A DNA stretch of 57,579 nucleotides, from the NCBI RefSeq assembly GCF_021026315.1, contig NZ_JAJNCX010000018.1, positions 1 through 57,579 of the forward strand, read 5' to 3'. Of this stretch, positions 1 to 24,344 are shown piece after piece. Numbering within the stretch: position 1 is the stretch's first letter; every line of letters starts with the position of its first letter. The stretch is from Rhizobium sp. C4. Its GTDB lineage: Bacteria > Pseudomonadota > Alphaproteobacteria > Rhizobiales > Rhizobiaceae. Both the position numbers and the translations under genes were made by a program. The notes under the pieces are model-generated. The model saw nothing but the letters and a program-made list of their open reading frames with translations, did not search any database and was not told the origin of the DNA.

Positions 1-60
1 AGCCTCCTGCTCGCGCAGCACCCCAATAATCTGCTCTTCTGTAAATCTCTGCTTCTTCAT
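1..60 (-). CDS. IS3-family transposase OrfA, N-terminal fragment
   Basis: The first 20 residues are visible, beginning MKKQRFTEEQIIGVL. This is the usual start of the helix-turn-helix OrfA (DNA-binding half of the transposase) in the IS407/IS511-like branch of IS3. A purine-rich leader (TGAGGACGGACTT) precedes the ATG. OrfB, which holds the DDE catalytic domain, would lie beyond the left edge of the window. The fragment is cut by the window edge, and nothing here shows whether the full element is intact. Confidence 0.8.
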   Translation of the reverse strand, partial: MKKQRFTEEQIIGVLREQEA

Positions 61-122
61 AAGTCCGTCCTCAATGGGCCGAACTCTAATCAATTTTGGA
101 GGAAATTCTCAGTGGCAGGTCA
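1..122 (-). mobile_element. End of an IS3-family (IS407-like) insertion sequence
   Basis: On the minus strand the sequence begins TGACCTGCCACTGAG at position 122, runs through a short leader and reaches an ATG at 60 that opens a typical IS3-family OrfA. The TG start and the TGACCTGCC motif match what I recall of terminal repeats of the IS407 subgroup. The outer end falls inside an amidase gene, whose reading frame is lost exactly there. Only this end is visible, because the rest of the element and its target duplication lie outside the window. The family is recognised from memory, with no database comparison. Confidence 0.8.
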
Positions 123-866
123 GGCGCCGGGCGCCGGCCGGATCGTTTCCGTCAGACCTAAGACCTCGGCCAGCAGCGCGAGGTCGGCGACGGAACGGCC
201 ATACCAGCCGACCGTATCGAGGCTGTTCGCGTAGATCTTGAAGCCTTCGCGGCTGACCATGCCGAAGGTCGGCTTCAGGGCGTAAACGCCGCAGAAGGAG
301 GCGGGACGGATGGTGGAGCCGCCGGTCTGGGTGCCGATGGAGAGGGGCACATGAAAGTCGGCGACGGATGCCGCGGAGCCGGCCGAGGAGCCGCCGGAAG
401 AAAACCGCGGATCACGCGGATTTCCGGTCGCGGCATTGCGACCGGCTGCGGCAAATTCCGTCGTGTCCGTCTTGCCCAGAATGATGGCGCCCTCGGCGCG
501 CAGCAGATCGACGACGGCCGCGTCCTGCCCCGGCTGGTGGCCTTCAAAATTGGGCGAGTTGAATGTGGTCGGCATGTCTTTCGTCTCGAAGACATCCTTG
601 ATGCCGATCGGCAGGCCATGCAGTCTGCCGCGCTGTTCCTGCGGCAGGGCATCGAGTGCGGAGGCCTGCTTCAGCACATGCGGGTTCAGGTGGAGCCAAG
701 CCCGAACCTCGCCATCGCGCGCCTCGATCCGTTGCAGGCAGGACTGCACCAGATCCCGGGCGAGAAGCCGGCCCTCCCGCAAAGCCTGCAATGCCTGCGT
801 CGCGGTGAGCCGATGAAGCTCCAATTTTGCCGGAATACCGGAGGCCGGTTGCGGTCGGATATTCAT
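120..866 (-). pseudogene. Amidase-signature enzyme, 3' end removed by IS insertion
   Basis: The visible 248 residues are a good amidase-signature N-terminal half. There is the catalytic Lys near residue 90 (GIKDVFE), the Gly/Ser loop GGSSAGSAASVA near 160 with the cis-Ser, and GTQTGGSTIRPAS near 183 with the nucleophilic Ser. Amidases of this family usually run 420-480 residues. Here the frame stops at codon 120-122, which is the terminal TGA of the IS end, so about 200 residues including part of the substrate-binding wall are gone. The start at 866 has GAGG five bases upstream. It follows the second amidase by 20 nt on the same strand and would have been the third gene of the rutA-like unit. 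Activity is unlikely unless the truncated core still folds. Confidence 0.88.
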
Positions 867-886
867 GACTACCTCGGGACTGTCTC

Positions 887-2431
887 TCAGTCTGAAGATG
901 CGCCGGGCGGGGCCAGACGGTGATGCCCGGTGACGGATTGAAATGCTGCACCGACGAGAAGGCAGAGCGCATCCTCCTGCGGGCGACCGACGATTTGCAT
1001 GCCGGTCGGCAGACCCGCGCGTCCAAGCCCCGTCGGAAGCATCAATGCCGGGAAGCCGGTGAAGTCGAAAATCATCGTGTTTCGGGAGATGACGTCCTGA
1101 AAACCAAGCGGCGCGCCGTTGACATCGACCGTCAACGTCGCAAGCGAGCCCGCTTCGCCGCCAATCCCCGGTGTGATGAGGAGGTCAAGGCCGTCCATCG
1201 CGCCGAGGAACGCGTCTTGCGCCGCCACCCGCGCCTGAAGAGCCTGAGCGTAGTCGACAGCGCTGAAGGCCATGCCATTGCGCAGCCGGCCGAACATGCC
1301 GGGGTCCATGAGGTCGGCGCGCTCCGCCCGTTCGGCATGAAGGGCTGCCAGTTCGCTTTGCAAGACGATCCAGCCGGCCTTGTGGTAGGGCGCGACATCC
1401 ACAGGCGGCAGCTCCACCAGGATGCAGCCTAGCGTCTCCAGCGTTTCGAGCGCCTTCTGCCAGTTGGTCAAGACAGCCTGATCCACATTGTCGGTGAACC
1501 AGCCGCTGGCGACCCCGATGCGCAGACCCTTTATGTCCAGATCTTCCGAAAAGGCGGCGCAGTCGTGGGCAAGCTGTGGATCGGGGTGGCCCGTCATGAA
1601 TGGCAGGACGCGGGCAATATCCGTCGCTGAACGCGCCATCGGGCCAACATGGTCGAGCGTCCAGGAGAGGGCGGCGACCCCGCGGCGGGAAACCTTCTCG
1701 CCTGTCGGCTTCAGTCCCGTCGTACCGCACCAGCAGGAGGGCACACGGATCGAGCCGCCGGTATCCGTGCCCAGCGCCAGCGGCATCAACCGGGCGGCCA
1801 GCGCCGCGCCGGAGCCCGTCGAGGAGCCGCCTGTCCACCGGCTTGCATCCCATGGATTGGTCACAGCGCCAAAGCGCGGATTATGCGGGCCGCCGCAGGC
1901 AAATTCGCTTGTGGCGGTCATGGCAAAGGGAATGGCACCGGCAGCCCGAAGGCGGGCAACGACATCGGCGTCTGCCGGAGCGATGCGGTTGCCGGTGAAT
2001 TTCGAGCCGCAGGTCACTTCTGTGTCGGCGACGTCGATAATGTCCTTGACGCCGAAGGGAATGCCCTCCAGCGGGCGCGGGTTGCCGGCACTCCATCGTG
2101 CCGCGCTTTCGACAGCCGCTTCATGGGCGCCGGGTATCGGTCGCAGAATGGCTTCGCCGCCCGCCCGGGTGATGTCGACCGAGGTCATGAGACTTTCGAG
2201 GGCATTGACCGGCGTCAGCACCCCTGTGGAAAAGGCAGAAAGCAAACCGCCGACACCTGCCTCGGCGACGCTCTTGAACGCGCCTTCGGCGATCGGCATG
2301 GAGGCGAGTTCCGGCTCGCTCACAGGCGGCATCATAGGATGCGGCGCGAGACGGGCGTCCGCGTCAGCCGGATCGACAAAGGAGGTCGGCTCCAGCACAT
2401 CCGTTGCAGGGAGGGGCTGGAGCATGTTCAT
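887..2431 (-). CDS. Amidase-signature family hydrolase
   Basis: This amidase of about 514 residues would hydrolyse a C-N amide or ureido bond in the cytoplasm. Visible motifs are Lys in GVKDIID (about residue 127), the Gly/Ser loop WTGGSSTGSGAALAAR (about 204) and the nucleophile segment GTDTGGSIRVPS (about 224), the standard Ser-cisSer-Lys triad. The N-terminal ~95 residues before the amidase core are longer than usual. I chose ATG 2431, which has GGAG six bases upstream inside the rutA-like 3' end; TTG 2434 is also open. It sits four bases after the rutA-like stop, so the two are translationally coupled. In the Rut pathway the next enzyme would be the isochorismatase-like RutB; an amidase here may take that step on a different product. 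The substrate cannot be read from sequence. Confidence 0.9.
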   Translation of the reverse strand: MNMLQPLPATDVLEPTSFVDPADADARLAPHPMMPPVSEPELASMPIAEGAFKSVAEAGVGGLLSAFSTGVLTPVNALESLMTSVDITRAGGEAILRPIPGAHEAAVESAARWSAGNPRPLEGIPFGVKDIIDVADTEVTCGSKFTGNRIAPADADVVARLRAAGAIPFAMTATSEFACGGPHNPRFGAVTNPWDASRWTGGSSTGSGAALAARLMPLALGTDTGGSIRVPSCWCGTTGLKPTGEKVSRRGVAALSWTLDHVGPMARSATDIARVLPFMTGHPDPQLAHDCAAFSEDLDIKGLRIGVASGWFTDNVDQAVLTNWQKALETLETLGCILVELPPVDVAPYHKAGWIVLQSELAALHAERAERADLMDPGMFGRLRNGMAFSAVDYAQALQARVAAQDAFLGAMDGLDLLITPGIGGEAGSLATLTVDVNGAPLGFQDVISRNTMIFDFTGFPALMLPTGLGRAGLPTGMQIVGRPQEDALCLLVGAAFQSVTGHHRLAPPGASSD

Positions 2432-2434
2432 CAA

Positions 2435-3517
2435 TTACTCCGCAGCAATGCTGGTGGCGTTACGGGAGGCCATAAGCGGCTGGATGCGCTGACCGAACTG
2501 GTCGAGGCCGATCAGGAAGTCGTCGAAGGTCAGCATGATGCCCTTGGTGCCGGGGACATTGGCGGCTTCATCCAGCATGCGGGCGACAGAGGCGTAGGAA
2601 CCAACGATCGTGCCCATGTTGAAGTTGACCGCGCCTTCCGGCAGGTTGATGTGCTTGGCTGTAGAGGAGCTGTCGGCCGAGGCGTCCTTGCTGCCCTGGT
2701 CCGCCATCCAGGCGAGAGCATTGACGTCCGCGCCGCCGCGATATTTCTCCCACTTGGCCTTTGCCAGTTCGTCCGTCTCGTCGGCGATGACCATGAAGAG
2801 AACATAGGCGCCAACGTCGCGGCCCGTCTTGGCCGTGGCTTCGACCAGGCGAATGTTGCCTTCCTTGTGGGCGGTCGGCGTGTTGATGCCGGCGCCCATG
2901 ACGAAGTTGTAGTCGGCATATTCGGCGGCGAATTCCATGCCGCGCGGGCTCTGGCCGGCGGCAACGATCTCGATCTTGTTGGCCGGCATCGGCTTCATCT
3001 TGCAATCGTTCATCTGGAAATGCTTGCCGTCGAAGGTGCATTCGCCCTTTGTCCAGAGGTCCTGCATGACGTGCACATATTCGGACGAATAGTCATAGCG
3101 GTAGCCGAAATAGTCATTGCCCGGCCAGATGCCCATCTGATCGTACTCGGCCATCTGCCAGCCGGAGACGATGTTGACGCCGAAACGGCCGGGCGCAACG
3201 CTGTCGATCGTCGTCGCCATGCGGGCGACAATGGCCGGCGGCAGGGTGAGCACGGCGGTGGAGGCGAAAAGCTTGATCCGCTCGGTGACGGCCGCAAGGC
3301 TCGCCATCAGCGTGAAGGATTCCAGATTGTAGTCCCAGAACTCGGTCTTGCCGCCAAAGCCGCGCAGCTTGATCATCGAAAGCGCGAATTCGAGACCGTA
3401 TTTTTCGGCCTTCTGCACGATCTGCTTATTGAGTTCGAAGCTCGGCATATATTGCGGCGCGGCCTCGGAAATCAGCCATCCATTGTTGCCGATCGGGATG
3501 AAAACGCCAATGTCCAT
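2435..3517 (-). CDS. rutA: RutA-like FMN-dependent monooxygenase
   Basis: This luciferase-fold (LLM class) flavin monooxygenase has 360 residues, the length of RutA. RutA uses FMNH2 and O2 to open the uracil ring to ureidoacrylate. Long stretches match RutA as I recall it: [15 protein letters not shown] at the start, [34 protein letters not shown], and [18 protein letters not shown] near the end. I start at ATG 3517, with AGGAG upstream and [10 protein letters not shown] as first residues; the longer frame to 3625 adds nothing family-like. It heads a unit with two amidases, and an operator-like site lies 40 nt upstream. Its reductase partner, RutF-like, is encoded 8 kb away. The missing rutB-E and the GntR rather than RutR regulator leave the true substrate open (uracil, thymine or another cyclic amide). 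Confidence 0.9.
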
Positions 3518-3556
3518 GTTGTGCTCCTGTGGTCGGGAAGGGGAGGATGAACTGCA

Positions 3557-3571
3557 ATATGTACGAACTAA
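3557..3571. promoter_or_regulatory. Putative GntR operator upstream of the rutA-like unit
   Basis: Read on the minus strand the 15-mer is TTAGTTCGTACATAT. It differs at one base from the site between gntR and the MFS gene (4654-4668). It begins 40 nt upstream of the rutA-like ATG and contains a TACATA -10-like hexamer, so binding would block transcription. The regulator assignment is inferred from proximity to gntR. Confidence 0.65.
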
Positions 3572-3748
3572 TGCAAAAATTCCGAAACCTGTCCAGACAA
3601 AAATGGCGAACAAATAGGCGTGCATAAAATACGTGCAAAATCCTTCCGGATTCCGGTGGGTGTGATTGGGAATTGGGCGCGATCAGGCGCGCGCTGCAGC
3701 AACATTGTGCAGCGCGCAAGAGTGGCTCAGACGGCGTTTTCGGCTGTT

Positions 3749-4546
3749 TTAGTTTTCTGCCCGCAGTGTCGTCGTGTAGCTGAAACGGTCGGCGGGGAGA
3801 ATCTGGAAAGCGTATTCCAGCAGGCGGCGGCCGGAGCCGTAATAGCGGCGGGTCACCATCAGGGCGAGGTCGCCGCCTTTGCAGCCGACTTTCTCGGCAA
3901 TGTCCTCGTCCATGGCGACGGGGCGAACATCCTGTTGAATTTCATGGATTTTCTCGCCCGTGAACTCTTCGATGTAGTGGAAGATGGCGCGGCGGGCGAC
4001 GGTGACGTCCTTGATGGCGGCGGCAACGCGCGAGTCGATATAGACTTCATTCCAGGAAAAGGCCCTGCCGCGATTGGCAGGGTAGCGCACGCCGGTGATG
4101 TGCAGGAACTTGCGGCCGGGGCGGCAGCCCAGATCGACGGCCAGTCTGCCCTGGGCCGAGACCATTTCGCGATAACCGATAACGAATTCCGTCTCTGCGG
4201 CAATTTCGAAGAGTTCTGAGCGCGATTGCGCGATGAAGCGCGTGCTGCCATTCGTAGCCTCTATGGCCTCGACGCGCGTGCCCACTCCCTTGCGCGCCGA
4301 AAGCCGCCCCTTGTTGCGTAACAGGCCAATTGCCTGGCGCACTGTCTGGCGGCTGACGCCGAGCGCTTCGGCAAGTTCGTTTTCCGTGGGGAGCAGGGAG
4401 CCAACTGCAAAATCACCCTTGGAAATGCGGGCCTCCAGGTGGTGTGCCACCTGCATATAGAGCGGCGCGGTCGCAATCTCGGGCTTCCAGTCGCTCTTGA
4501 TATCCTGTTTGCCGCTCGTCATTTCCACAGCAATTGCATCGCTCAT
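3749..4546 (-). CDS. GntR-family regulator, HutC/UTRA subfamily
   Basis: The protein has 265 residues. Residues ~25-95 form the GntR winged helix: PLYMQVAHHLEARIS, then LPTENELAEALGVSRQTVRQAI as recognition helices, then a wing ending GVGTRVE. The rest is a UTRA ligand-binding domain (SRSELFEIAAETEFVIGY through DLALMVTRRYYGSGRRLLEY). ATG 4546 is preceded by GGGAGG ten bases upstream. It lies divergent from the MFS gene and next to the rutA-like unit. A palindromic TAGTACGTACAT-type motif in its own promoter region recurs before the two other transcription units, so it is likely a local autorepressor responding to the catabolic substrate. The canonical Rut regulator is the TetR-type RutR, so this is a different control system. 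Confidence 0.88.
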   Translation of the reverse strand: MSDAIAVEMTSGKQDIKSDWKPEIATAPLYMQVAHHLEARISKGDFAVGSLLPTENELAEALGVSRQTVRQAIGLLRNKGRLSARKGVGTRVEAIEATNGSTRFIAQSRSELFEIAAETEFVIGYREMVSAQGRLAVDLGCRPGRKFLHITGVRYPANRGRAFSWNEVYIDSRVAAAIKDVTVARRAIFHYIEEFTGEKIHEIQQDVRPVAMDEDIAEKVGCKGGDLALMVTRRYYGSGRRLLEYAFQILPADRFSYTTTLRAEN

Positions 4547-4653
4547 GTGTTCAGGCCTCCCGGCCCATCAATATGTTTTTTCATGCGAAAGCAAACGGAT
4601 TTCAGCGCCGATGCTAATTTTCGCAGTGTCCTTGCGCTCAATTTCGAAATCAA

Positions 4654-4668
4654 TTAGTACGTACATAT
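4654..4668. promoter_or_regulatory. Putative GntR operator between gntR and the MFS gene
   Basis: The site TTAGTACGTACATAT contains the 8-bp palindrome GTACGTAC. It lies 29 nt upstream of the MFS ATG and 108 nt upstream of the gntR ATG, so one site could control both divergent genes. It shares 14 of 15 bases with the site before the rutA-like unit and the GTACGTACAT core with the site before the importer. Confidence 0.68.
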
Positions 4669-4696
4669 ACGGATATCTTTAGGGCTGTTGCATTTC

Positions 4697-5929
4697 ATGT
4701 CAGACGTCACCGTCGAAGACGCCTCGGGATCGGGCGCGCGGAAATCCCATTCGCTTGTGGTCACGCTCAGTGCGGCCACGTTGATCCAGATTGTCGCAAC
4801 GGCCAGCGTTCTTGCCCTGACTGCCATTGCTCCGACTGTGGCTGTGGATCTTGGCATCGGGGCCTATCTGATTGGTTATCAGATCAGCCTGATCTATGCC
4901 TCGGGCATGTTCTCGTCGGCTGTGGCCGGTACGCTCGTCAAGCGCTTCGGGCCGGTACGTGTCGAACAGCTGGCGCTTGTCTGCTTTGTTCTAGGTTTTG
5001 TCGGCATCGCCATGGCGCATGTTCTGCCAATCATCATCGCCTCCCTGCTGATCGGGATCGGCTATGGGCTGAACAATCCTGCTTCCTCGGAAATGCTGGG
5101 GCGGATCACGCCGCAGAACAAGCGCAACATCGTCTTCTCGATCAAGCAGTCCGGTGTGCCGCTCGGCGGCATCCTGGCGAGCTTTGCCTTTCCCTTCCTG
5201 TCGCGGCAGATTGATTGGCAATATGCGGTGTTGGTCGGGGCTGCGGCGCCGCTGGCGACCATGGTGCTTCTGGCTGTAACGCATGAGAGCGACCCTGTGG
5301 ACCGCACCGTGCCGATGGGCTCGATGATGAAGGGGTTTCGCGACGAGCAAAGCATCATCTGGAAAAATCCCAAGCTGAGAACCTTGAGTTTCCTCGGCTT
5401 TGCCTATTCGGCGACGCAGCTTTCGCTTTCCGCCTTCGCGGTTGTGACGCTGGTTCATGATGGCGGCTGGTCGCTTCTGGCCGCCGGTTCCGTGGCGGCC
5501 GTGATGCAGTTCTTTGGCGCGTTCGGGCGCATCTTCTGGGGTGTCGTTGCGGACAGGGTTGGCGGCGGCTTCAAGACGCTGGCGCTGCTGGGGCTGCTCA
5601 TCGGACTTGGATTCGCCTCCCTTTTCTTTGTCGTGGACATGCCGGCTTACGTGCAGGTCGCGATACTGATCATGTTGGGCATGACTACGATCGGCTGGAA
5701 CGGCGTGCTCTTGGCCGAGGTGGCGCATAATGCGCCGGAAGGGCGCATCGGCGCGATTACTGGTGGCGTCCTGGTTTACACGTTCATCGGTGTCATCGTC
5801 GGGCCGTCGAGCTTTGCAAGCCTCTATATGGGCACTGGCCATTATGGGGCGAGTTTCCTTGTCTTTTCGCTGCTCGGATTTTTCGGCATGGTCGCGGCAT
5901 GGCGCTCCCATAAAGCGGCGCGGGTCTGA
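4697..5929 (+). CDS. Major facilitator superfamily transporter
   Basis: This inner-membrane carrier of 410 residues has about twelve hydrophobic spans. The MFS signature between spans 2 and 3 is seen as GTLVKRFGPVRVEQ. The segment IGIGYGLNNPASSEML and the motif KQSGVPLGGILA recall the cyanate/aromatic-acid-type MFS branch. ATG 4697 is chosen; an upstream TTG at 4688 is also in frame. It is divergent from gntR, shares the operator at 4654-4668 with it and is followed by a strong terminator. From the context it probably moves the substrate or a breakdown product of the rutA/amidase pathway. Direction of transport and ligand are not evident. Confidence 0.87.
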   Translation: MSDVTVEDASGSGARKSHSLVVTLSAATLIQIVATASVLALTAIAPTVAVDLGIGAYLIGYQISLIYASGMFSSAVAGTLVKRFGPVRVEQLALVCFVLGFVGIAMAHVLPIIIASLLIGIGYGLNNPASSEMLGRITPQNKRNIVFSIKQSGVPLGGILASFAFPFLSRQIDWQYAVLVGAAAPLATMVLLAVTHESDPVDRTVPMGSMMKGFRDEQSIIWKNPKLRTLSFLGFAYSATQLSLSAFAVVTLVHDGGWSLLAAGSVAAVMQFFGAFGRIFWGVVADRVGGGFKTLALLGLLIGLGFASLFFVVDMPAYVQVAILIMLGMTTIGWNGVLLAEVAHNAPEGRIGAITGGVLVYTFIGVIVGPSSFASLYMGTGHYGASFLVFSLLGFFGMVAAWRSHKAARV

Positions 5930-5961
5930 CATGTAAAGTACTGACATATTAAGATATGGAG

Positions 5962-5994
5962 CGGGGCCGTGCAACGTGTGCGGCCCCGTTTTCG
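5962..5994 (+). terminator. Rho-independent terminator after the MFS gene
   Basis: A perfect 8-bp stem, CGGGGCCG (5962-5969) paired with CGGCCCCG (5981-5988), has an 11-nt loop and is followed by TTTTCGTTT. It lies 33 nt after the MFS stop codon and isolates that gene from the importer operon. Confidence 0.85.
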
Positions 5995-6118
5995 TTTGTC
6001 CTTTCGTTACGTAAAGTTTCGTCAATCTAAGGGAGATGAATAAGAATATTGCAGATAATCACGCCTTGGACGGCATTTGCCTGAATATTTTGCAGTGCAA
6101 AAAAATCTTGCAAAATAG

Positions 6119-6149
6119 TTGACGACGCTTTGAATATGTACGTACATTA
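6119..6149 (+). promoter_or_regulatory. Candidate promoter and GntR operator of the importer operon
   Basis: TTGACG at 6119-6124 lies 18 nt before TACATT at 6143-6148, a reasonable sigma70-type pair. The operator-like ATATGTACGTACAT (6134-6147, core palindrome TGTACGTACA) overlaps the -10 region, the position expected for repression. The substrate-binding-protein ATG is 74 nt downstream. Confidence 0.62.
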
Positions 6150-6222
6150 CATATGTCCCGTTGCCACGGAGATGCGATCACGACCCCGGAAATGCGGGGC
6201 ATCCAACAGGGGAATGTCAGAT

Positions 6223-7323
6223 ATGCGTGTGCTTCTACTCAGCGCTTTCGTTGCCGCGTCCGCCATTGCTGCAGTGCCGTCGGGCGCGCATGCGGATGCC
6301 ATGGCCGACGCCAAGGCGATCATCGAACAGCATAAGAAGATACCCGTCTTTGAACCGCCCGGCGAGCCCTTTGACGCAAAGTCCTGCATGGCGGGCAAGA
6401 AGGTTCTCTCGATCCCGATCTCGATGACGATCCCGTTCAATGTCGAGTTGCAGAAGGCGATGTCAACCGCCGCCAAGGAAGTCGGCTTCACCTACACGAC
6501 CTGGGACAATCAGCTGAAGACCGACCAGTGGATACAGGGTGTGTCGCAGGCAATCAGCCAGAAATACGACGTGCTGGACCTCGCCGGCGGCCTGAACCCC
6601 GAATGGCTTGGCCCGCAGCTGAGCGAAGCGCGCAGCGCCGGTCTCAAGATCACGACAACGCATCTTTACGATGTCACTCAGAAGTCCGCTCCGACGGTGG
6701 ATTACTCCTCGCGCGTCGACTTCACCGGCGCGGGCAAGGTGCTCGCCGCCTGGGCCTATATTCAGACAGGCGGCAAACCGAATGTGCTCATCGTAGGCTC
6801 CTCAGACGTGCTGCCGTCCATTCCCTTCGTCAAGGCGATCCAGGAAGAGCTGAAGGTGCTTTGCCCGGAATGCAAGCAGAAACATCTCGATGTCCCGGTT
6901 TCCGACTGGGCCACGAAGATCCAGCCCGGCACGCAATCCGCGCTGCTGGCTGATCCCGGCATCAACTACATCATCCCGATCTATGACTCGATGTCGCAAT
7001 TCGTCGTGCCGGCGCTGCGCATCACTGGTGCGGCTGGCTCAGTCGGCGTCGCAGGCTTCAACGGCACGCCCTTCGTGCTCGACATGCTGCGCGACGGCCA
7101 GGTCAACATGGATATCGGCGAAAGCCTCGGCTGGGCCGGCTATGCGGCGATCGACAACATCATGCGCATGATCTGCGGCAAGCCGGAAGTGGCCAAGCTC
7201 AACGTGCCGCTGCTGATCTTCGACAAGGACAATGTGAAGACTGCCGGCGTGCCGGCCAACTTCAATGACGGCTATGGCGATGCGCATCTCGAGGGGTTCC
7301 GCAAGCTCTGGAAGCTGAAGTGA
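6223..7323 (+). CDS. Sugar-type ABC importer, periplasmic binding protein
   Basis: This is a secreted solute-binding protein of 366 residues, of the ribose/sugar-binding (Periplasmic_BP_4-like) fold. The signal peptide is visible: MRVLLLSAFVAASAIAAV followed by a cleavage region near SGAHA/DA. I start at 6223, with GGGG about nine bases upstream; longer frames to 6130 only add residues before the signal peptide. Typical fold segments include KVLSIPISMTIPFNVE and the later SVGVAGFNGTPFVLDMLRDG. It is the first gene of an importer operon with ATPase, permease, a 68-aa protein, an amidase and a RutF-like reductase. Despite the sugar-transporter family, this context suggests an N-containing ring compound or nucleoside-like ligand; that is inference. 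Confidence 0.9.
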   Translation: MRVLLLSAFVAASAIAAVPSGAHADAMADAKAIIEQHKKIPVFEPPGEPFDAKSCMAGKKVLSIPISMTIPFNVELQKAMSTAAKEVGFTYTTWDNQLKTDQWIQGVSQAISQKYDVLDLAGGLNPEWLGPQLSEARSAGLKITTTHLYDVTQKSAPTVDYSSRVDFTGAGKVLAAWAYIQTGGKPNVLIVGSSDVLPSIPFVKAIQEELKVLCPECKQKHLDVPVSDWATKIQPGTQSALLADPGINYIIPIYDSMSQFVVPALRITGAAGSVGVAGFNGTPFVLDMLRDGQVNMDIGESLGWAGYAAIDNIMRMICGKPEVAKLNVPLLIFDKDNVKTAGVPANFNDGYGDAHLEGFRKLWKLK

Positions 7324-7358
7324 GCTGAGCAACCTTCAACCCGAACCGGAGCCGCGCC

Positions 7359-8906
7359 ATGACTGATAATGCCGTGCTTGTGATGAACAACATCAAGATG
7401 AAGTTCGGAAGCAACTATGCCCTCAAGGGCGTCAGCATTGCGGTCCGGCGCGGCGAGGTCTTCGGCCTGCTCGGACAGAACGGATCGGGCAAGTCCACCC
7501 TCATCAAGGTTCTGGCCGGGTTTCACCAGCCGGAAGAGGGCAGCGAGGTCGTGCTGTGGGGCGAGAAAATGGCCCTGCCGCTCGACCCCATGCTGATCAA
7601 GAAGCGCGGTGTCGCCTTCGTCCACCAGCATCTCGGTCTCGTCCCCTCGCTGACGGTCGCCGAAAACATGCGGGTGACGTCACTCGGCCAGAAGAACCCC
7701 TGGTTCGTTTCCTGGCGCAAGGAGGCCGAGCGCCTTTCCAGGCTCTTTGCCGAATTCAATCTCGATATCGACCCGATGGCGACCGTGGCGAGCCTGCCGC
7801 CGGTCGAGCGCGCCTTCGTCGCCATCATCCGCGCCTTCGAGGATCTGCGTGCGTCCGATGCCGGCTATGGTGGGGAGGGCATTCTGGTACTCGACGAACC
7901 GACGCCTTTCCTGCCGGGCGAGGACGTGAAGCGGCTCTTCGAACTCGTCCGTTCCATCGTCAAGACCGGCGCCTCCGTGATCATCGTGACCCACGACATC
8001 GACGAGGTGCGCGACATCACCGATCGCGTCGCTGTGCTGCGTGACGGACAGCTGGTCGAGGTTCTCGACACGTATGCCTCGAGCCGCCAGGCCATTCTTG
8101 ATACGATCATCGGATCGCGCATCGATGCCTTTGCCAAGGAGCGGATGAGCACCGGCGCTGCTCCCGTTGCCATCCGCGCCGATCATCTGACCGATGGCCG
8201 CACGCCGCCTTTCAGCCTGTCGCTGCAAGAGGGTGAGATTCTGGGTGTCACGGGCCTGATTGGCTCGGGCTTTGCCAGCGTGCCTTACACGCTTTATGGC
8301 GCGCGGCGGGGAGCCGGGACGCTGACAGTTGCCGATCGGAAGGTCGATCTGGCGGCCATGAGCCCGCTCATGGCGCAGCGCATGGGCGTGGCATTGCTTC
8401 CAGGTGACAGGCTGGGGGCGGCCGGGATCGGCTCGCTGGCAGTCACCGACAACATTACTCTGCCCATTCTTGAGGAACTTTCGAACCTTGTGGGGCTCGA
8501 CCGTGGCGCCATGGTGAAGTAGGCCGGGCGGCTTTCCGAACTCCATGACGTGCGCCCGCACAATCCGGCGCTGGCGCTCGGGTCGCTTTCCGGCGGAAAT
8601 CAGCAGAAGGTGCTGCTTGCCAAATGGCTGCGCATCCAGCCGAAACTGCTTCTCCTCGATGAGCCGACGCAGGGTGTCGATTTTGGCGCGCGGCAGCAGA
8701 TTTTCAAGGCGCTGGATGGGGCGGCGCGCGCCGGAACCTCCATCCTCTGCGCCTCCACCGACAATGAACAGCTTGAGCAGATCTGCGACCGCATCCTTGT
8801 CTTCGCGCGCGGACGGCCCGTGGTCGAGCTCAAGGGACACGAGATCAGCCGCAAGGCAATCACCGAAGCCTGCTTCTACAGCACCGATGCGGAGGCCGCA
8901 GAATGA
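7359..8906 (+). pseudogene. Sugar-type ABC importer ATPase with an in-frame amber codon
   Basis: Two tandem ABC domains of the RbsA/MglA kind are encoded in one continuous frame interrupted by TAG at 8520-8522. The first 387 residues hold Walker A GQNGSGKST, Walker B GILVLDEPT and a degenerate signature (SLPPVERAFVAII), then the usual degenerate second P-loop (GLIGSGFASV). After the TAG the same frame continues AGRLSELHDVRPHN and carries the strong second signature LSGGNQQKVLLAKWL and Walker B LLLLDEPTQGVD. The joined product would be about 515 residues, normal for the family. The stop removes the only canonical signature motif. One substitution (for example CAG or AAG to TAG) explains it. 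The gene may be dead, or partly rescued by amber suppression or internal re-initiation. The permease start overlaps its end. Confidence 0.85.
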
Positions 8907-9913
8907 CAACGATCGAAATGCCCGTCCAGAAACCCGTCTCCGCCCTGCGGTCGCGCTTCACGCTGAAAACCGAGGCGGAACGTTTCGCGCTGGTCGCCGC
9001 CTGGCTCTTTCTCATCATTCTCTTCGGCATTCTCATGCCGGACAGTTTCTTGAGCTGGCGCAATTTCTCGACCATGTTCGGCTCGCAGGCCGTCCTGGTC
9101 GTCCTCACGCTCGGCATCATCATTCCGCTCACCTCCGGCGACTTCGACCTGTCGGGCGCGTCCATCCTGACGATGAGTTCGATGGTCATCGGCGTCTTCA
9201 ATGCGCAGATGGGCTGGCCGATCCTGCCGGTGCTGGTCATGTCGCTGGCCGTCGGCGCGCTGATCGGGGCGATCAATGCCTTCTTCGTCCTCTATTTCCG
9301 CATCCACTCGCTCATCGTGACCTTGGGTGTCGGCACCTTCGTCAATGGCGTCATTCTCTGGATGAGCGGTTCGCAGACGATCTCCGGCGTCTCGATGGAC
9401 CTTGTTACCTGGGTCATCATGGGCCGGCTCTGGGGCATTCCGCTCGCCTTCTACTATGCGCTGATCCTGGCTGCGGTCATCTGGTACGCGTTCGAATTCA
9501 CCATTCCCGGCCGCAAGCTGCTGTTTGTCGGACGCGGTCGCGAGGTCTCGCGGTTGAACGGCATCCCGGTCGAGCGTGTGCGCGCGACGTCCTTCATTCT
9601 CTCAGGCCTGATCTCCGCCTTTGCCGGCATCCTCTATTCCGGCATGACGGGTTCGGCCGATCCGCTCTCCGGCCTCAATCTGCTGCTGCCCGCCTTCGCT
9701 GCGGCCTTCCTCGGCGCCACGACCATCGCGCCCGGCCGCTTCAACGCATTCGGCGCCGTGATCAGCGTCTATTTCCTCGTCACCGGCATTACCGGCCTGA
9801 CCATGATGGGCGCACATGCCTATGTGCAGAACCTCTTCTATGGCGGCGCGCTGGTCATCGCCGTGTCGCTCAGCCAGCTCGTCCGCAACCGTCAGCCGCA
9901 GGATTTCAGCTGA
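8903..9913 (+). CDS. Sugar-type ABC importer permease (RbsC-like)
   Basis: This integral membrane permease of 336 residues has about eight to ten hydrophobic spans in the RbsC/AraH pattern. Visible family segments are TLGIIIPLTSGDFDLSGASI near residue 70, IGAINAFFVLYFRIHSLIVT, and GRKLLFVGRGREVSRLNGI, the cytoplasmic loop that docks on the ATPase. Its ATG overlaps the end of the ATPase frame (ATGA). Its TGA overlaps the ATG of the following 68-aa gene, so translation of the whole operon is coupled. The gene looks intact even though the ATPase upstream has an amber codon. Confidence 0.92.
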   Translation: MTTIEMPVQKPVSALRSRFTLKTEAERFALVAAWLFLIILFGILMPDSFLSWRNFSTMFGSQAVLVVLTLGIIIPLTSGDFDLSGASILTMSSMVIGVFNAQMGWPILPVLVMSLAVGALIGAINAFFVLYFRIHSLIVTLGVGTFVNGVILWMSGSQTISGVSMDLVTWVIMGRLWGIPLAFYYALILAAVIWYAFEFTIPGRKLLFVGRGREVSRLNGIPVERVRATSFILSGLISAFAGILYSGMTGSADPLSGLNLLLPAFAAAFLGATTIAPGRFNAFGAVISVYFLVTGITGLTMMGAHAYVQNLFYGGALVIAVSLSQLVRNRQPQDFS

Positions 9914-10119
9914 TGGCCGAACTCAAGGAAATCGCCGATACGCTGGCGCGCCTTTACTGGTCGCGTCCGGCCAACGAGGCGGAGACGGTCGCCATGGCGG
10001 GTGAAATGGAGCGCGACAGTGCCGCCATCGCCCCGCCGCGCGAGGGACAAGGCAATGTCTTCTTCGCAATCGAGCCTTCGACCTACTATGCGCTGATGGC
10101 CAAGGAGGCGGAGGCATGA
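9913..10119 (+). CDS. 68-aa protein, candidate GatC/AtzG-like amidase partner
   Basis: A small acidic protein, MAELKEIADTLARLYWSRP at the start and ending in FFAIEPSTYYALMAKEAEA, with predicted helices. It overlaps the permease stop at its start, and its TGA overlaps the amidase ATG at 10116, so it is made in step with the amidase. Small helical subunits of this size sit directly before amidase-signature enzymes elsewhere: GatC with GatA, and AtzG with the 1-carboxybiuret hydrolase AtzE. I see no decisive motif, so the partner role is inferred from size, gene order and coupling. Without that context it is a conserved-type hypothetical protein. Confidence 0.72.
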   Translation: MAELKEIADTLARLYWSRPANEAETVAMAGEMERDSAAIAPPREGQGNVFFAIEPSTYYALMAKEAEA

Positions 10120-11537
10120 GCAAGCTTCATCCGCAAAGCCTCGCCGAGGCGGCCAGCCTGATCAGGACCGGTGAGGTCACCTCGCTTTCGCTGACGCAGG
10201 CCGCGATCGAACGCGCCAAGACATCGCAGCCGCGCATCAACGCCTTCATCGCCATCGAGGAGGATGCAGCCCTTGCCGCCGCCGAGGCGGCCGACCGTTG
10301 GAAATCGGGCGGCAAGCCGCTGGGCCCGTTGCACGGCGTGCCGCTGGCGCACAAGGACATGTATGACCGCAAGGGCATGGTGACGGGATGCGGGTCCAAA
10401 ATCCGCGCCGGCCATGTCGCGACCTCGACCTCGACTGTGATGCAGCGGCTTGAGGCGGCGGGCGCCATTTCCATCGGGCGGCTCAACATGAGCGAATTCG
10501 CCATGGGGCCGACCGGTCACAATGCCCATCATGGCCGCGCGAAGAACCCGATCGATCCGGAGCGGATCACGGGCGGCTCGTCCAGCGGTTCGGGTTCTGC
10601 CGTCGGGGCAGGGGTTGTGCTGGCCGCGCTCGGCTCCGACACCGGTGGTTCCATTCGTCTTCCAGCCGCCTGCTGCGGCGTTGTCGGCATCAAGCCCACG
10701 CAGGGACGCGTCAGCCGCCATGGCGCAATGCCGCTTTCCTTCTCGCAGGATTGTATCGGCCCGCTCGGCGCGCATGTGGATGACGCCTACAGCCTGCTCC
10801 GGATCATCAGCGGTGCGGACCCGCTCGATCCGACCTGCGCGACCTTGCCGCCGCCCGACGATCTGTCTGCGGACGTGTCGGCCCTGCGCATCGGGGTGCT
10901 CGGTGGCGTGTTCGCGAAAGATGTCGAGGCGGTGGTTGCGGGTGGTTTGGGCGCTGCAATGATGGCGCTGGAGCCGCATGTCGCCGCAATCCGGCAGGCA
11001 ACGCCTTCCGATCTCTCGACGGTTGCCGAACTTGCAAACGTCGTTGCCATGGGCGAGGCGGGCGCGGCCCATTTCGACTGGGTGCGCGAGCGGCCGGAAG
11101 ATTACGGGCCGCAGATCCGCATGCGGCTGTCGCAATCGCTTGCCATGCCCGCCCCGATCTACATCCGCGCGCTACAGATGCGCAGTCTCCTGCTGGCAGA
11201 GTTTTTGGAGACGGCATTCTCGGAGGCGGACGTGCTGATCGCGCCGGTCATGCCGTTCCTGCCGCCGCGTTCGGCGGATGTCGATATTGGCGCGAGCCCC
11301 GAGATGAACCGTATCGTCAGCGCGATGACAATGTTCACGCGGCCGTTTTCCTATCTCGGATTGCCGGTCGTCACGATGCCGGTCGCCGTCTCGCCCGAGG
11401 GGCTGCCGGTCGCGATCCAGATCATAGGCCGGCCCTGGCGCGAGGCACAGATCGCCTGCCTCGCCAGCCGTCTCGAACACGAACTCTCCCTCAAACCCTT
11501 TGTGCCGCAGGTCGCGCCCCTGGCGCAGTCGGCATGA
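10116..11537 (+). CDS. Amidase-signature hydrolase (AtzE/GatA-like)
   Basis: The protein has 473 residues, full length for the family. The triad is visible: Lys about residue 79 in PLAHKDMYDRKG, cis-Ser in ITGGSSSGSGSAVGAG near 153, and the nucleophilic Ser in GSDTGGSIRLPAACCG near 178. The C-terminal part ends with a typical FSYLGLPVVTMPVA segment and GLPVAIQIIGRPW. It is translationally coupled to the 68-aa protein upstream and followed by the RutF-like gene. It is the third amidase of the cluster and the only one in the importer operon. The best guess is hydrolysis of a ureido or carbamoyl intermediate produced after ring opening. The exact amide is unknown. Confidence 0.9.
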   Translation: MSKLHPQSLAEAASLIRTGEVTSLSLTQAAIERAKTSQPRINAFIAIEEDAALAAAEAADRWKSGGKPLGPLHGVPLAHKDMYDRKGMVTGCGSKIRAGHVATSTSTVMQRLEAAGAISIGRLNMSEFAMGPTGHNAHHGRAKNPIDPERITGGSSSGSGSAVGAGVVLAALGSDTGGSIRLPAACCGVVGIKPTQGRVSRHGAMPLSFSQDCIGPLGAHVDDAYSLLRIISGADPLDPTCATLPPPDDLSADVSALRIGVLGGVFAKDVEAVVAGGLGAAMMALEPHVAAIRQATPSDLSTVAELANVVAMGEAGAAHFDWVRERPEDYGPQIRMRLSQSLAMPAPIYIRALQMRSLLLAEFLETAFSEADVLIAPVMPFLPPRSADVDIGASPEMNRIVSAMTMFTRPFSYLGLPVVTMPVAVSPEGLPVAIQIIGRPWREAQIACLASRLEHELSLKPFVPQVAPLAQSA

Positions 11538-11561
11538 GCGCTACTTGAAAGGATGTCTCTG

Positions 11562-12098
11562 ATGACCCTCAAACCGTCTTTCGCCAATGCCGAAGTCATC
11601 GCGGATGCCGTCTCGCAGCAGACCTTTCGCGATGCGATGTCCAAGATGGGCGCGGCCGTCAACATCGTGACCTCCGACGGCCCGGCCGGCAAGGTCGGCT
11701 TTGCCGCAACTGCCGTGTGCAGCGTCACCGACACGCCGCCGACACTGCTTGTTTGTCTCAACCGCTCCGCCTCGGTGTTCAACGCCGTCATGGAAAACCG
11801 CGCGCTCTGCGTGAATGTGCTGGCGAGCTCCCACGACCGCCTCTCCAACCTCTTCGGCGGCAAGACGCCGGTCGAGGAGCGGTTTGCTGCGGCAAGCTGG
11901 CATCGCGGCGTATCAGGCGCACCGGTACTTGACGATGCCGTCGTCTCGTTCGATTGCATGGTGGCGGACAGTATGGATGTGGGGACACACCGCGTCCTGT
12001 TCTGCTCCGTCCTTTCCGTTTCCAACGGTGAAGGCGCCGATGCGTTGATCTACTTCCAGCGAAGCTACCACAGCGTGGGGCTTGCCGCTGCCGGTTAG
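11562..12098 (+). CDS. rutF: RutF-like NADH:flavin reductase
   Basis: This is a flavin reductase-domain protein of 178 residues. Segments matching RutF as I recall it include [39 protein letters not shown] and [20 protein letters not shown]. RutF regenerates the reduced FMN consumed by RutA. I prefer ATG 11562, because AAAGGA lies seven bases before it; the ATG at 11553 abuts that ribosome site. It closes the importer-amidase operon, while the RutA-like oxygenase is on the opposite strand 8 kb away, so the two-component monooxygenase is split between two units under one proposed regulator. No obvious terminator follows. Confidence 0.9.
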
Positions 12099-12982: not shown

Positions 12983-14065
12983 TCAGGCGGCGGTGCTGGT
13001 GCTTGAGTGAAATGTGGTATGGGCAACGGTTACACTCATGCCTTTGTCGCTGGACACGGTCTGGACCCGCGCGTCCAGCTGCTTGGCAAGGGCTTCAATG
13101 ATCAGCGATCCCAGCCCCGATCCCGGTTCTGCCGGTTTGGCCGTCGCGTTTTTGCCCACGCCGTTGTCCGAAACCACCAGCCGCCAGTCTGCTTCCTGCA
13201 TTTCGAAGCTCACCAGAACCCGTTCGGACCCGGTATGGACCGGGAAGGCATATTTGATGGCGTTGATGACGAGTTCCGTGACGATGAGACCAAGGCTGAC
13301 GGCGCTGCGGGACGGGATCGCGCTTTCGGTTGCGTTCACATCGATGATGATGGGCCTGCTGTCCAGCACGATGGACTTGGCCAAACCCTCGCACAGCTTG
13401 CGCAGGTAAGCCGCCACTTCGATCTCTTCGACACCGTCTGTCAGATGCAGATAGTTCTGGACGGTTGCGACCGACATGACGCGCCTATGGGCATCTTCCA
13501 GATGGCGTCGGCTGTCTTCGGAGGTGACCGCGCGCGCCTTCAGCAGCAATATGCTCGCTATGATCTGAAGGCTGTTGGCGACCCGGTGCTGCATCTCGTC
13601 GAAGAGAATACGTTGCTGGTCGAGCAATTTTTCGGTGCGCTCGAGAAGCGCCTGTTTCTCGGCCGTGGCATGCCTTGCTTCCGTGACATCGCGAAAGGCC
13701 AGCAACGTGTTCGGCGGGGACGATCCGCCGTAGGCGACCGTACTGGCCGACATGACCAGAGTTCGCCGACCGAGGCTTGCGACATCACGATCGAATTCAA
13801 AAGCTGAGATCTGCGGCTGATCCGGCATGGTCACCGTCAGCAGGTTGCGCAGCACCGGAATGTCCCATTGCTGCTCGTCCAGATCAAACAGGCCGACACC
13901 ATGAGATGTCTCGGGATCGATCTCGAACGTCTGAAAGAAGGCACTGTTTGCCGCAATGAGGCGCATGTGGCTGTCGAGGACGACGAAGGGTTCTGGAATG
14001 CTCTCGACGATCGCGAGCGCAAGCGTCTTGGCATCCTGGGGATTTCCGAGCCGCCGCAACCGCAT
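12983..14065 (-). CDS. PAS-containing HWE/HisKA_2 sensor histidine kinase
   Basis: This cytoplasmic kinase of 360 residues has no membrane span. Residues ~20-135 are a PAS sensor (IPEPFVVLDSHMRLIAANSAF). Around 160 is the HisKA_2 phosphoacceptor, LFDEMQHRVANSLQIIASIL, with the modified His. The C-terminal ATPase domain has LIVTELVINAIKYAFP (N box), VVSDNGVGK (G1) and GSGLGSLIIEAL (G2). This form is common in Rhizobiales, often in general stress or light signalling. No response regulator gene is adjacent, so its partner must be elsewhere. ATG 14065 is preceded by GGGGG rather than a strong ribosome site. Confidence 0.88.
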   Translation of the reverse strand: MRLRRLGNPQDAKTLALAIVESIPEPFVVLDSHMRLIAANSAFFQTFEIDPETSHGVGLFDLDEQQWDIPVLRNLLTVTMPDQPQISAFEFDRDVASLGRRTLVMSASTVAYGGSSPPNTLLAFRDVTEARHATAEKQALLERTEKLLDQQRILFDEMQHRVANSLQIIASILLLKARAVTSEDSRRHLEDAHRRVMSVATVQNYLHLTDGVEEIEVAAYLRKLCEGLAKSIVLDSRPIIIDVNATESAIPSRSAVSLGLIVTELVINAIKYAFPVHTGSERVLVSFEMQEADWRLVVSDNGVGKNATAKPAEPGSGLGSLIIEALAKQLDARVQTVSSDKGMSVTVAHTTFHSSTSTAA

Positions 14066-21066: not shown

Positions 21067-22008
21067 TCATGAGCGCAACGCGCCACCGAGATCGTGGCTT
21101 TTGGCAATCCGCGTGCCCGCATGGCCGTTCAGTATGCCTTCGGCATCCTCAAGCCGTCCGATTGCCGCAAATCCTCCTGCTTCGGCAAAGTCGGCCGCAG
21201 CAATGAGCTTCGGCCGCATGGAACCCTCCGGGGCACCCAGGGTGCGCGCAGCCTCCGGCGTCAGTTCGGCAATGGCGACGGCATTCCCGCTGCCGAAATC
21301 ACGAAAGACCGCGGCAACATCCGTCAACAATAGCAGCGCATCAGCGCCGAGCGAACGCGCCAGCAGGGCGCTTGCGGCATCCTTGTCGATGACCGCCTCG
21401 ATGCCGAGCAGGCTGCCGTCGTTGCGTCTGACGACCGGGATACCCCCGCCGCCGGTGCAGACGACGATCACGCCGTTGTCGAGCAGCAGCTTCAGCACCT
21501 TCCAGTCCGGGATCTCGACGGGCTTCGGCGAGGGAACAACACGACGCCACTTGTCGCCGTCTCTCGCAACGGTCCATCCGGCCGCCTTCGCGCGGCTTTC
21601 CGCTTCAGCTTGTTCATAGACCGGGCCGACGAATTTGCCGGGCTTGCCGAAAGCCGGATCCTTCGGGTCCACAATCACCTGTGTCAGGACGGTCGCCACC
21701 GGTCTTGTGTGATCCAGCGCGTTTTCCAGTTCCTGCTCGATCATATAGCCGATCATGCCCTCGGTTTCTGCGCCGAGAACATCCAGCGGATAGGCCTCAT
21801 CCGGCTTGTAGGCGGCGCCTTGCAGGGCGAGCAGGCCAACCTGCGGACCGTTGCCATGCGTGACGACAAGTCTGTGGCCCGCCCGGATGATGGCGGCCAG
21901 CGACCGGGCGACGACCTGAACGTTTTTGCGTTGCGCCTCTGCCGTCAGGGCCTCGCCGCGCCTGAGAAGGGCGTTGCCGCCGAGTGCTGCCACGACCAGC
22001 ATTCTCAA
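21067..22008 (-). CDS. arcC: Carbamate kinase
   Basis: The protein has 313 residues, the usual length. It transfers the phosphate of carbamoyl phosphate to ADP, the ATP-yielding last step of the arginine deiminase route. Visible motifs are [12 protein letters not shown] at the N-terminus (phosphate binding), [24 protein letters not shown] and the [24 protein letters not shown] stretch (nucleotide site). Its start overlaps the end of the ornithine carbamoyltransferase gene by four bases, so the two are coupled. Confidence 0.95.
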
Positions 22009-23006
22009 TCCCCCAGCGTTGCAACGAGGACTGCCTTGATGGTGTGCAGACGGTTTTCCGCCTGATCGAAGACGATCGAGGCCGGACTTTCAAAGACCTC
22101 TTCCGTGACTTCCATGGCATCGATGCCAAACTGGGCCTTGATGTCGGCACCGACGCTCGTCTCCGTATTATGAAATGCCGGCAGGCAATGCATGAAGCGG
22201 GTTCTCGGATTTCCGGTCCGTTTCATCAGCGCCGCGTTGACCTGATAGGGCATGAGCAGCTTGATACGTTCTGCCCATTTCTCCTTCGGCTCGCCCATCG
22301 AAACCCAGACATCGGTATAGACGAAGTCGACATCCTTGACCGCCTGTCCGATATCCGCCGTGATCGTGATCCGCGCGCCGGTTTCTTTGGCGATCTCGTC
22401 CGCCTCGTGGCGAATTTCGGCAGACGGCCAGCATGCCTCCGGCGCACAAAGCCGAACGTCCATGCCCATTTTGGCGCCGCCGATCAGCACGCTGCCGCCC
22501 ATGTTGTTGGCGGCGTCGCCGATGAAAACGAAGGCGACCTGATGCAGGAGCTTTTCGACATGTTCCTGCATGGTCAGGAAGTCGGCCAGGATCTGGGTTG
22601 GATGGAATTCATTGGTCAGGCCGTTATAGACGGGCACGCCGGAATATTTCGCCAGTTCCTCGACGATCGCCTGGCCGAAGCCCCGATATTCGATCGCGTC
22701 ATAGATGCGGCCAAGAACGCGGGCCGTATCCTTGACCGATTCCTTGTGCCCGATATGGCTTCCCGTTGGTCCGAGATAGGTGACGCGCGCGCCCTGATCG
22801 AAGGCCGCGACTTCAAAGCCGACACGGGTTCGGGTCGAATCCTTCTCGAAAATGAGGGCAATGTCCTTGCCCTTTAGCCTTGGGACCTCGGTGCCGGCAT
22901 ATTTTGCCGTCTTCAGGTCCGCCGCAAGCTTGATGAGAAAGCTGATCTCGCGCGGCGTGTAATCGCGAAGCGTCAGCAGGCTTCGGTTCTTCAGATTGAA
23001 GGCCAT
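22005..23006 (-). CDS. arcB: Ornithine carbamoyltransferase, catabolic
   Basis: The protein has 333 residues. The carbamoyl-phosphate loop is [13 protein letters not shown] near residue 57, the second substrate motif is [10 protein letters not shown] near 272, and [18 protein letters not shown] is also typical. In the deiminase route it works in reverse, splitting citrulline into ornithine and carbamoyl phosphate. The start at 23006 has AAGGAG eight bases upstream; the longer frame overlaps arcA and is Arg-rich. Gene order arcD-arcA-arcB-arcC supports the catabolic rather than the biosynthetic (ArgF) role. Confidence 0.95.
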
Positions 23007-23023
23007 GGAAATGCTCCTTGAAG

Positions 23024-24256: not shown

Positions 24257-24344
24257 TGTCGTCTTCCTCGGCCAATGGCCGCCAGAGCATCATCCGATCG
24301 GAGTGGAACGAAGGTCGATTGGATCATGTTGAAAATAGAAGGAT

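Follow-up and report, generated by a model that had tools for sequence, protein, structure and literature searches.

The gene cluster at the left end of the analysed stretch of Rhizobium sp. C4 DNA (57,579 nucleotides of contig NZ_JAJNCX010000018.1, assembly GCF_021026315.1; hereafter the window) is a decaying copy of a conserved cassette that is intact in relatives and that carries a RutA-type flavin monooxygenase from outside the canonical RutA clade. We favour the reading that the cassette is a regulon serving a second ring-opening pathway of the Rut type; our best guess at its substrate is a substituted pyrimidine or a related cyclic ureide. The cassette is composed of genes encoding the flavin reductase RutF, an AtzE-like amidase, a 68-aa protein, a CUT2-type ABC importer, a major facilitator superfamily (MFS) carrier, a GntR/UTRA regulator, RutA, two further amidases (amidases 2 and 3), and an isochorismatase-family hydrolase. 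This bacterial gene set is conserved and apparently undescribed; no description of a RutA-centred cassette was found in a literature search limited to open-licence papers.

The RutA lineage

An earlier note on this DNA, made from the sequence alone, had recognized RutA-like and RutF-like genes, and both proved genuine. The RutA gene passed the equivalog model TIGR03612 with 624 bits (cut-off 498.3), and the RutF gene passed TIGR03615 narrowly, with 256.2 bits (cut-off 254.75). The window RutA matched E. coli RutA with 533 bits and 64-65% identity. The suggestion that this copy might belong to a lineage of its own was borne out by the trees. In a 33-row tree, the canonical RutAs, including that of E. 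coli, formed a group of 13 rows (support 100/100), and the window RutA fell in a separate clade of 11 rows (97/94). A quick tree of 131 rows, from which L111 (partial) and L117 (a stop in the aligned stretch) had been dropped, recovered 25 canonical rows (99) and an 81-row clade containing the window copy, with a support of 89 that lies below the program's star. Within this clade, the window RutA belongs to a subclade of 17 rows (SH-aLRT 99), in which every named member is from the Rhizobiaceae or is a "Rhizobiales bacterium"; the row of locus L025 bears another family code.

At position 105 (E. coli RutA numbering), serine is present in 80 of the 81 clade rows versus threonine in all 25 canonical rows, while L65, N134, V136, A206, and F224 are invariant in all 81 clade rows, the A206 position being one placed in this analysis. 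Residue 105 contributes to O2 binding according to PMC10005588, the O2-pocket motif of RutA is given in PMC8234197, and L65, V136, and F224 are given in PMC7662398. The latter describes RutA, which opens uracil and thymine, together with DszA and HcbA1 as a small class of enzymes using flavin-N5-oxide. From these residues, the RutA chemistry has probably been kept, with a clade-specific change adjoining the flavin.

The genomic surroundings were available for 16 of the 25 canonical rows, 15 of which (not L036) have RutB, RutC, or RutD nearby and two an amidase. Among the 81 clade rows, RutB, RutC, or RutD was found near a single one, L093, which carries its own canonical RutA. Non-canonical RutA genes lie near canonical rut genes in L093, L110, L122, and L123, and L022, L087, L104, and L105 each combine a pair of RutA-type genes that fall in separate parts of the tree, as though two related ring openings were linked. 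Locus L029 (G005:C34, 7708-12351) bears four tandem RutA-type genes of a third RutA clade, that of A. vitis, beside an amidase and a flavin reductase.

The conserved cassette and its shared promoter motif

The relatives sampled were the best 80 of at least 572 confirmed ones, and gene presence was scored in 51 chosen loci (17 of the window's subclade, seven of Rhodobacterales, and 27 others); the 81 clade rows come from 79 loci in all. In the subclade, the genes encoding RutF, the AtzE-like amidase, the ABC permease, ATPase, and periplasmic binding protein (SBP), the MFS carrier, the GntR regulator, and RutA are present in 17/17 loci. Sixteen of them have amidase 2 and 13 have amidase 3 (a count that includes the truncated copy of the window), and 14 have the isochorismatase-family hydrolase, which the window, L069, and L070 lack. 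A methylisocitrate-lyase-like gene was detected in 11 subclade loci, in two of them as a partial match. The seven Rhodobacterales loci, two of which come from one species, all contain the hydrolase, amidase 3, and the AtzE-like gene, with RutE in six, the ABC genes and a flavin reductase (33-35% identity) in five each, and amidase 2 in three. In the 27 further loci, the hydrolase was found in 13, amidase 3 in 11, amidase 2 and the permease in 10 each, the AtzE-like gene, the ATPase, and the SBP in nine each, and RutE in one (L023). All six cassette RutE genes of relatives that were scanned scored over the RutE cut-off. In the Actinomycetota, Rhodococcus L125 and Gordonia L138 combine RutA with amidase 2, the hydrolase, and the ABC genes. 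The co-occurrence of RutA/RutF with amidases that the earlier note had proposed to look for is thus found in many other genomes.

In eight chosen cassette pairs, amidase 2 was less conserved than RutA, the permease, and the SBP, and also less than the hydrolase in the five pairs that allowed this comparison. Between the window and locus L063 of Rhizobium sp. C1, for example, identity reaches 97% for RutA, 99% for the permease, and 95% for the SBP versus 76% for amidase 2 and 82% for amidase 3. Judged by these comparisons, the importer, RutA, and the hydrolase look like the conserved core, and the amidases like the variable part. In Rhizobium sp. C1, a RepB-type plasmid partition gene lies roughly 500 bp from the end of the intact cassette (L063, 15115-16134), which may therefore travel on plasmids. 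In L041 (3548-4123), as well as in L092 and L103, a DHBP-synthase-like gene adjoins the RutF-like gene.

The two arms of the cassette, which lie on opposite strands, share a promoter motif. There are four occurrences of TWCGTACAT in the window versus 0.18 expected, a number reached in 0 of 100 shuffles; since the pattern was picked after inspecting the three spacers concerned, this figure flatters the motif, and its conserved position in relatives counts for more. In the window, one site precedes rutA and another the MFS gene; the one upstream of the SBP gene is an overlapping palindrome. Among the 17 subclade loci, the motif is found at the rutA promoter in 17, at the SBP promoter in 16, and at the MFS promoter in 12, and 58 of its 60 matches lie within these three spacers. 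It was absent from the seven Rhodobacterales and five canonical loci examined, and occurred once among five other cassette loci (L092). The earlier note had called the pathway split; one motif at the promoters of both arms joins them, and the division is one of strand only. The GntR/UTRA protein of the cassette is the candidate to bind TWCGTACAT and would act at the sites of both arms.

Predicted pathway and substrate

In the pathway that we propose, the CUT2 ABC importer and the MFS carrier would import a heterocycle, RutF would provide reduced FMN, and the RutA-type enzyme would open a ring amide bond. The isochorismatase-family hydrolase, lost in the window copy, would then perform the RutB step on a ureido- or amido-acrylate product, and the amidase-signature enzymes would strip further amide nitrogens. 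Carbon would exit via RutE in the Rhodobacterales or via the methylisocitrate-lyase-like enzyme in many subclade loci. This assignment differs from that of the earlier note, in which amidases took the place of RutB to RutE. In that form the replacement is right only in part: intact relatives keep at this place a hydrolase of the RutB superfamily, and the Rhodobacterales keep RutE. Amidases are common near RutA without being always present, lying within 10 kb in 54 of the 81 clade rows.

The cassette hydrolase of the relatives matched PF00857 (116 bits). Against the RutB model (cut-off 377.95), three of the four proteins scanned scored 40.9-46.6 bits and the fourth was not listed, and against the RutB structure the score was 29.6 bits. 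The nearest solved proteins are N-carbamoylsarcosine amidohydrolase (26st, 1nba) and 3ot4/3uao, with 127-139 bits for 26st and 3ot4, and the catalytic Cys stretch TTSGCVRA aligns with both of the latter. We take 3ot4/3uao to be maleamate amidohydrolase. The maleamate amidohydrolase of Bordetella bronchiseptica is the subject of a paper cited by PMC7948467. Of these two enzymes, one takes a carbamoyl group off a substituted amine and the other cleaves a cis-acrylic amide. As ureidoacrylate combines both features, the cassette hydrolase is the leading candidate to perform the RutB step.

The likeness to 3ot4/3uao could also fit a pathway for a cyclic, maleimide-like imide, in which RutA would open the imide, maleamate-type hydrolases and half-amidases would complete the degradation, and the lyase would take the dicarboxylate. 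Such a substrate would account for the half-amidases and the lyase-like gene of the subclade loci; the nearest solved relative of the intact R. rhododendri amidase 3 is malonamidase E2 (199 bits), the window copy differing in being truncated. Hydantoinase-like enzymes within the RutA clusters of L023 (11847-14344) and L024 (5212-7691), with 311 and 300 bits (below the cut-off of 393), point the same way. A cyclic imide would not, however, account for RutE, which in the Rhodobacterales points to a three-carbon semialdehyde, and RutA is close to the pyrimidine enzyme, which makes this pathway improbable. The clusters of L023 and L024 also hold a CobW/COG0523-type GTPase, that of L024 being judged by eye.

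The AtzE-like amidase brings in s-triazine or biuret-type catabolism, in which RutA would be incidental. The 68-aa gene has the position and size expected of atzG, preceding the AtzE-like gene in 17/17 subclade loci, like atzG and atzE on pADP-1. The amidase, however, scored below both AtzE cut-offs (362.1 of 461 and 352.9 of 425.75). An AtzG or GatC identity of the 68-aa protein found no support in the comparisons made: hhalign gave a probability of 0.3% against three AtzG-like proteins, Pfam returned nothing on 17 members, and AlphaFold with Foldseek gave a best E of 1.1, with no GatC in the best 50 of 67 matches. The likeness to AtzG is one of positional analogy only, and we consider this type of catabolism very improbable. 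The atzG-atzE-atzH clusters of Bordetella and Achromobacter, which include a monooxygenase and an FMN reductase (PMC6219798), may still be cousins of the cassette. Likened by description only, they share with it a small ORF followed by an AtzE-type amidase, a monooxygenase, and a flavin reductase, and they differ in the AtzE scores and the missing AtzG match just given.

When compared to the E. coli Rut pathway (PMC8113886, PMC7662398), the cassette resembles it in RutA and RutF and, in some relatives, in RutE. It differs in lacking RutC and RutD, in the separate clade of its RutA, in its sugar-type ABC importer, GntR/UTRA regulator, and extra amidases, and in the absence of RutB over the cut-off from the window genome. 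In this genome, a single RutA scored over the cut-off, the best RutB match reached 121.7 bits, and RutE is absent, with a best score of 21.7 bits. No RutC or RutD was found beside the window RutA; neither these two nor RutG were searched for genome-wide. Of the absences listed in the earlier note, those of RutB and RutE stand; as to RutR, contig C47 carries a RutR-like regulator that scores below both cut-offs (238.7 of 368 and 223.9 of 230). It adjoins a dihydropyrimidinase gene (590.8 bits; cut-off 393.25) and a carbamoylase-family hydrolase.

Among 36 genomes with clade members, RutB was found over the cut-off in 12 and as a weaker match (E up to 1e-60) in seven, and was not found in 17; all 12 fall among the 16 subclade genomes searched. 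RutB was matched in 19 genomes; its neighbourhood was read in nine of them, and eight of these (the exception being G237) hold a canonical-clade RutA. Since in such relatives the cassette coexists with a canonical RutB and RutA, plain uracil is unlikely to be its substrate. A canonical rut operon elsewhere in related species, such as Peteryoungia aggregata (intact cassette L073, canonical operon L147), with the cassette RutA staying in its own clade, favours the distinct route put forward in the earlier note.

A redundant pathway for uracil or thymine would have RutA open uracil and the isochorismatase-family hydrolase act as RutB, the RutC and RutD steps being spontaneous and the amidases bystanders. 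The identity to E. coli RutA and the retained O2 motif agree with it, as do RutE in six of the seven Rhodobacterales loci, the lack of RutB in the window genome, and the statement in PMC8113886 that the chemistry does not require RutC. It is nevertheless unlikely: besides coexisting with canonical rut genes, the cassette coexists with a dihydropyrimidinase, which scored over the cut-off in 34 of the 36 genomes, that of the window among them. Its importer is of the sugar type, no rutG-type carrier is included, and several amidases are conserved beside RutA.

Several observations weigh against a second, non-uracil pathway. No RutB match was obtained in the window genome or in those of L063 and L064, so a uracil role is still possible there. 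RutE is present in only one of the 17 subclade loci (L025). In 27 of the 81 clade rows, no amidase turned up within 10 kb, and the hydrolase lies near just 29 of them, some contigs being short in both counts. Loci of Streptomyces and many other actinobacteria, including freshwater ones, and many of Methylobacterium have few cassette partners; those outside the 51 chosen loci include Streptomyces, several Methylobacterium, and freshwater actinobacteria, again with few partners in the neighbourhood table. Finally, besides the modest support of the window's clade, the deepest forks of the 131-row tree are weak.

On balance, the cassette probably serves the use of a ring compound other than uracil as food. 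A regulon around a separate RutA clade, kept alongside the uracil operon, suggests that RutA chemistry is applied to another nitrogen compound, and the cassette supplies defined genes, promoters, and intact strains for finding it. More broadly, we lean slightly towards a widespread second RutA lineage (Rhizobiaceae, Rhodobacterales, Actinomycetota) that would use flavin-N5 oxygen chemistry to open some ring that is neither uracil nor thymine. Around this lineage would stand a so far unrecognised pathway for scavenging nitrogen, equipped with a regulon and an importer of its own, a hydrolase of the isochorismatase type, and amidases that evolve fast. The hydrolase related to N-carbamoylsarcosine amidohydrolase and the sugar-type importer would both be explained by an N1-substituted pyrimidine; no nucleoside-cleaving gene was seen in the cassette, though no search was aimed at one, which weighs on this substrate. 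The conserved regulon also suggests that automatic labels of "pyrimidine utilization protein A" span more than one pathway.

Damage to the window copy and neighbouring features

The window copy is damaged at two places (Table 1). The contig begins with a repeat of 119 bases, identical or near-identical copies of which occur at seven places in the genome, all at contig ends, as would fit a repeated insertion sequence (IS) that halted assembly; these bases are probably an IS end. On their reverse strand lies a 20-aa start that is presumably that of an IS3-family transposase. The truncated amidase 3 that follows is 81% identical to the L063 protein over 246 of 446 aa. With the amidase 3 and hydrolase stretch of L063 as query against the Rhizobium sp. 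C4 genome, nucleotides 61-731 matched at the window edge and a distant match of 66% appeared on contig C12; sequence searches found neither the remainder of amidase 3 nor the linked hydrolase anywhere else in this genome. In this copy at least, the short amidase 3 and the missing hydrolase reflect either decay at the site or a gap in the assembly, and it is through this damage that the window lacks the hydrolase. The second lesion is an in-frame TAG in the ABC ATPase gene, which has no internal stop in any of the 20 relatives in which both halves were detected.

With amidase 3 truncated, the hydrolase missing, and the ATPase interrupted, the cassette may be a relic without a working pathway in Rhizobium sp. 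C4, which is quite possible, although we doubt it on balance. The RutA, RutF, amidase 2, and AtzE-like reading frames are open, an assembly gap could conceal the missing part, and a relic would concern this strain only, the cassette being intact in relatives.

An isochorismatase on contig C12 (62% protein identity) was considered as the lost cassette hydrolase and rejected, as it belongs to a different cluster and the stretches examined there lack the TWCGTACAT motif. This gene lies beside a LeuD-like gene in C12:150584-171000 (L058, L059), a region that also holds paralogues of the SBP, ATPase, and permease (43-53%) together with a RutF-like gene.

Table 1. Features of the cassette copy in the window, with the evidence for each.
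Feature	Position	Strand	Evidence
Repeat at contig end, cutting amidase 3	1-119		Repeat copies at contig ends
Amidase 3, N-terminal half only (malonamidase-E2-like in relatives)	120-866	-	PF01425, profile positions 1-205 of 445
Amidase 2	887-2434	-	PF01425, 293 bits; nearest solved structure biuret hydrolase 6c62
RutA-type flavin monooxygenase, non-canonical clade	2435-3517	-	TIGR03612, comparison with E. coli RutA, trees
TWCGTACAT site upstream of rutA	3559-3567	-	Pattern scan; 17/17 subclade loci
GntR/UTRA regulator	3749-4546	-	PF00392, PF07702
TWCGTACAT site upstream of MFS gene	4658-4666	+	Pattern scan; 12/17 loci
MFS carrier	4697-5929	+	PF07690, 120 bits
Palindromic TWCGTACAT site upstream of SBP gene, overlapping a promoter-like -10	6136-6147		16/17 loci
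CUT2-type periplasmic binding protein (SBP)	6214-7323	+	PF13407 (Peripla_BP_4)
Sugar-type ABC ATPase, interrupted by TAG at 8520-8522	7359-8906	+	Reading frame, comparison with relatives
ABC permease	8903-9913	+	PF02653 (BPD_transp_2)
68-aa protein, conserved ahead of AtzE-like gene	9913-10119	+	Counterpart in 17/17 subclade loci
AtzE-like amidase	10116-11537	+	NF006631, 362.1 bits (cut-off 461); nearest structure biuret hydrolase
RutF-type flavin reductase	11553-12098	+	TIGR03615

The gene list of the earlier note, with three amidase-signature enzymes (all of which match PF01425), a GntR/UTRA regulator, an MFS carrier, an ABC importer, and a 68-aa protein, was largely upheld, except that the third amidase lies outside the 887-12098 interval assigned to the cluster and is present as its N-terminal half only. 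A second 68-aa ORF at 5730-5936 overlaps the MFS gene in a different frame and is regarded as spurious. The closest folds to the binding protein are ribose-type SBPs at about 20% identity, which indicates a sugar-type protein only. Immediately beyond the RutF gene, a histidine-kinase-like gene is situated at 12983-14065 on the minus strand; an HWE-kinase gene also flanks the Palleronia cassette, and no likeness between the two was seen in the neighbourhood comparison. Further along the window, the segment at about 21100-25760 shows approximately 80% DNA likeness to an annotated arginine deiminase/ornithine carbamoyltransferase/carbamate kinase operon of an Agrobacterium plasmid. Finally, a 2743-aa ORF with FG-GAP and cadherin-like repeats, possibly encoding a large surface protein, occupies 49341-57572 on the minus strand.

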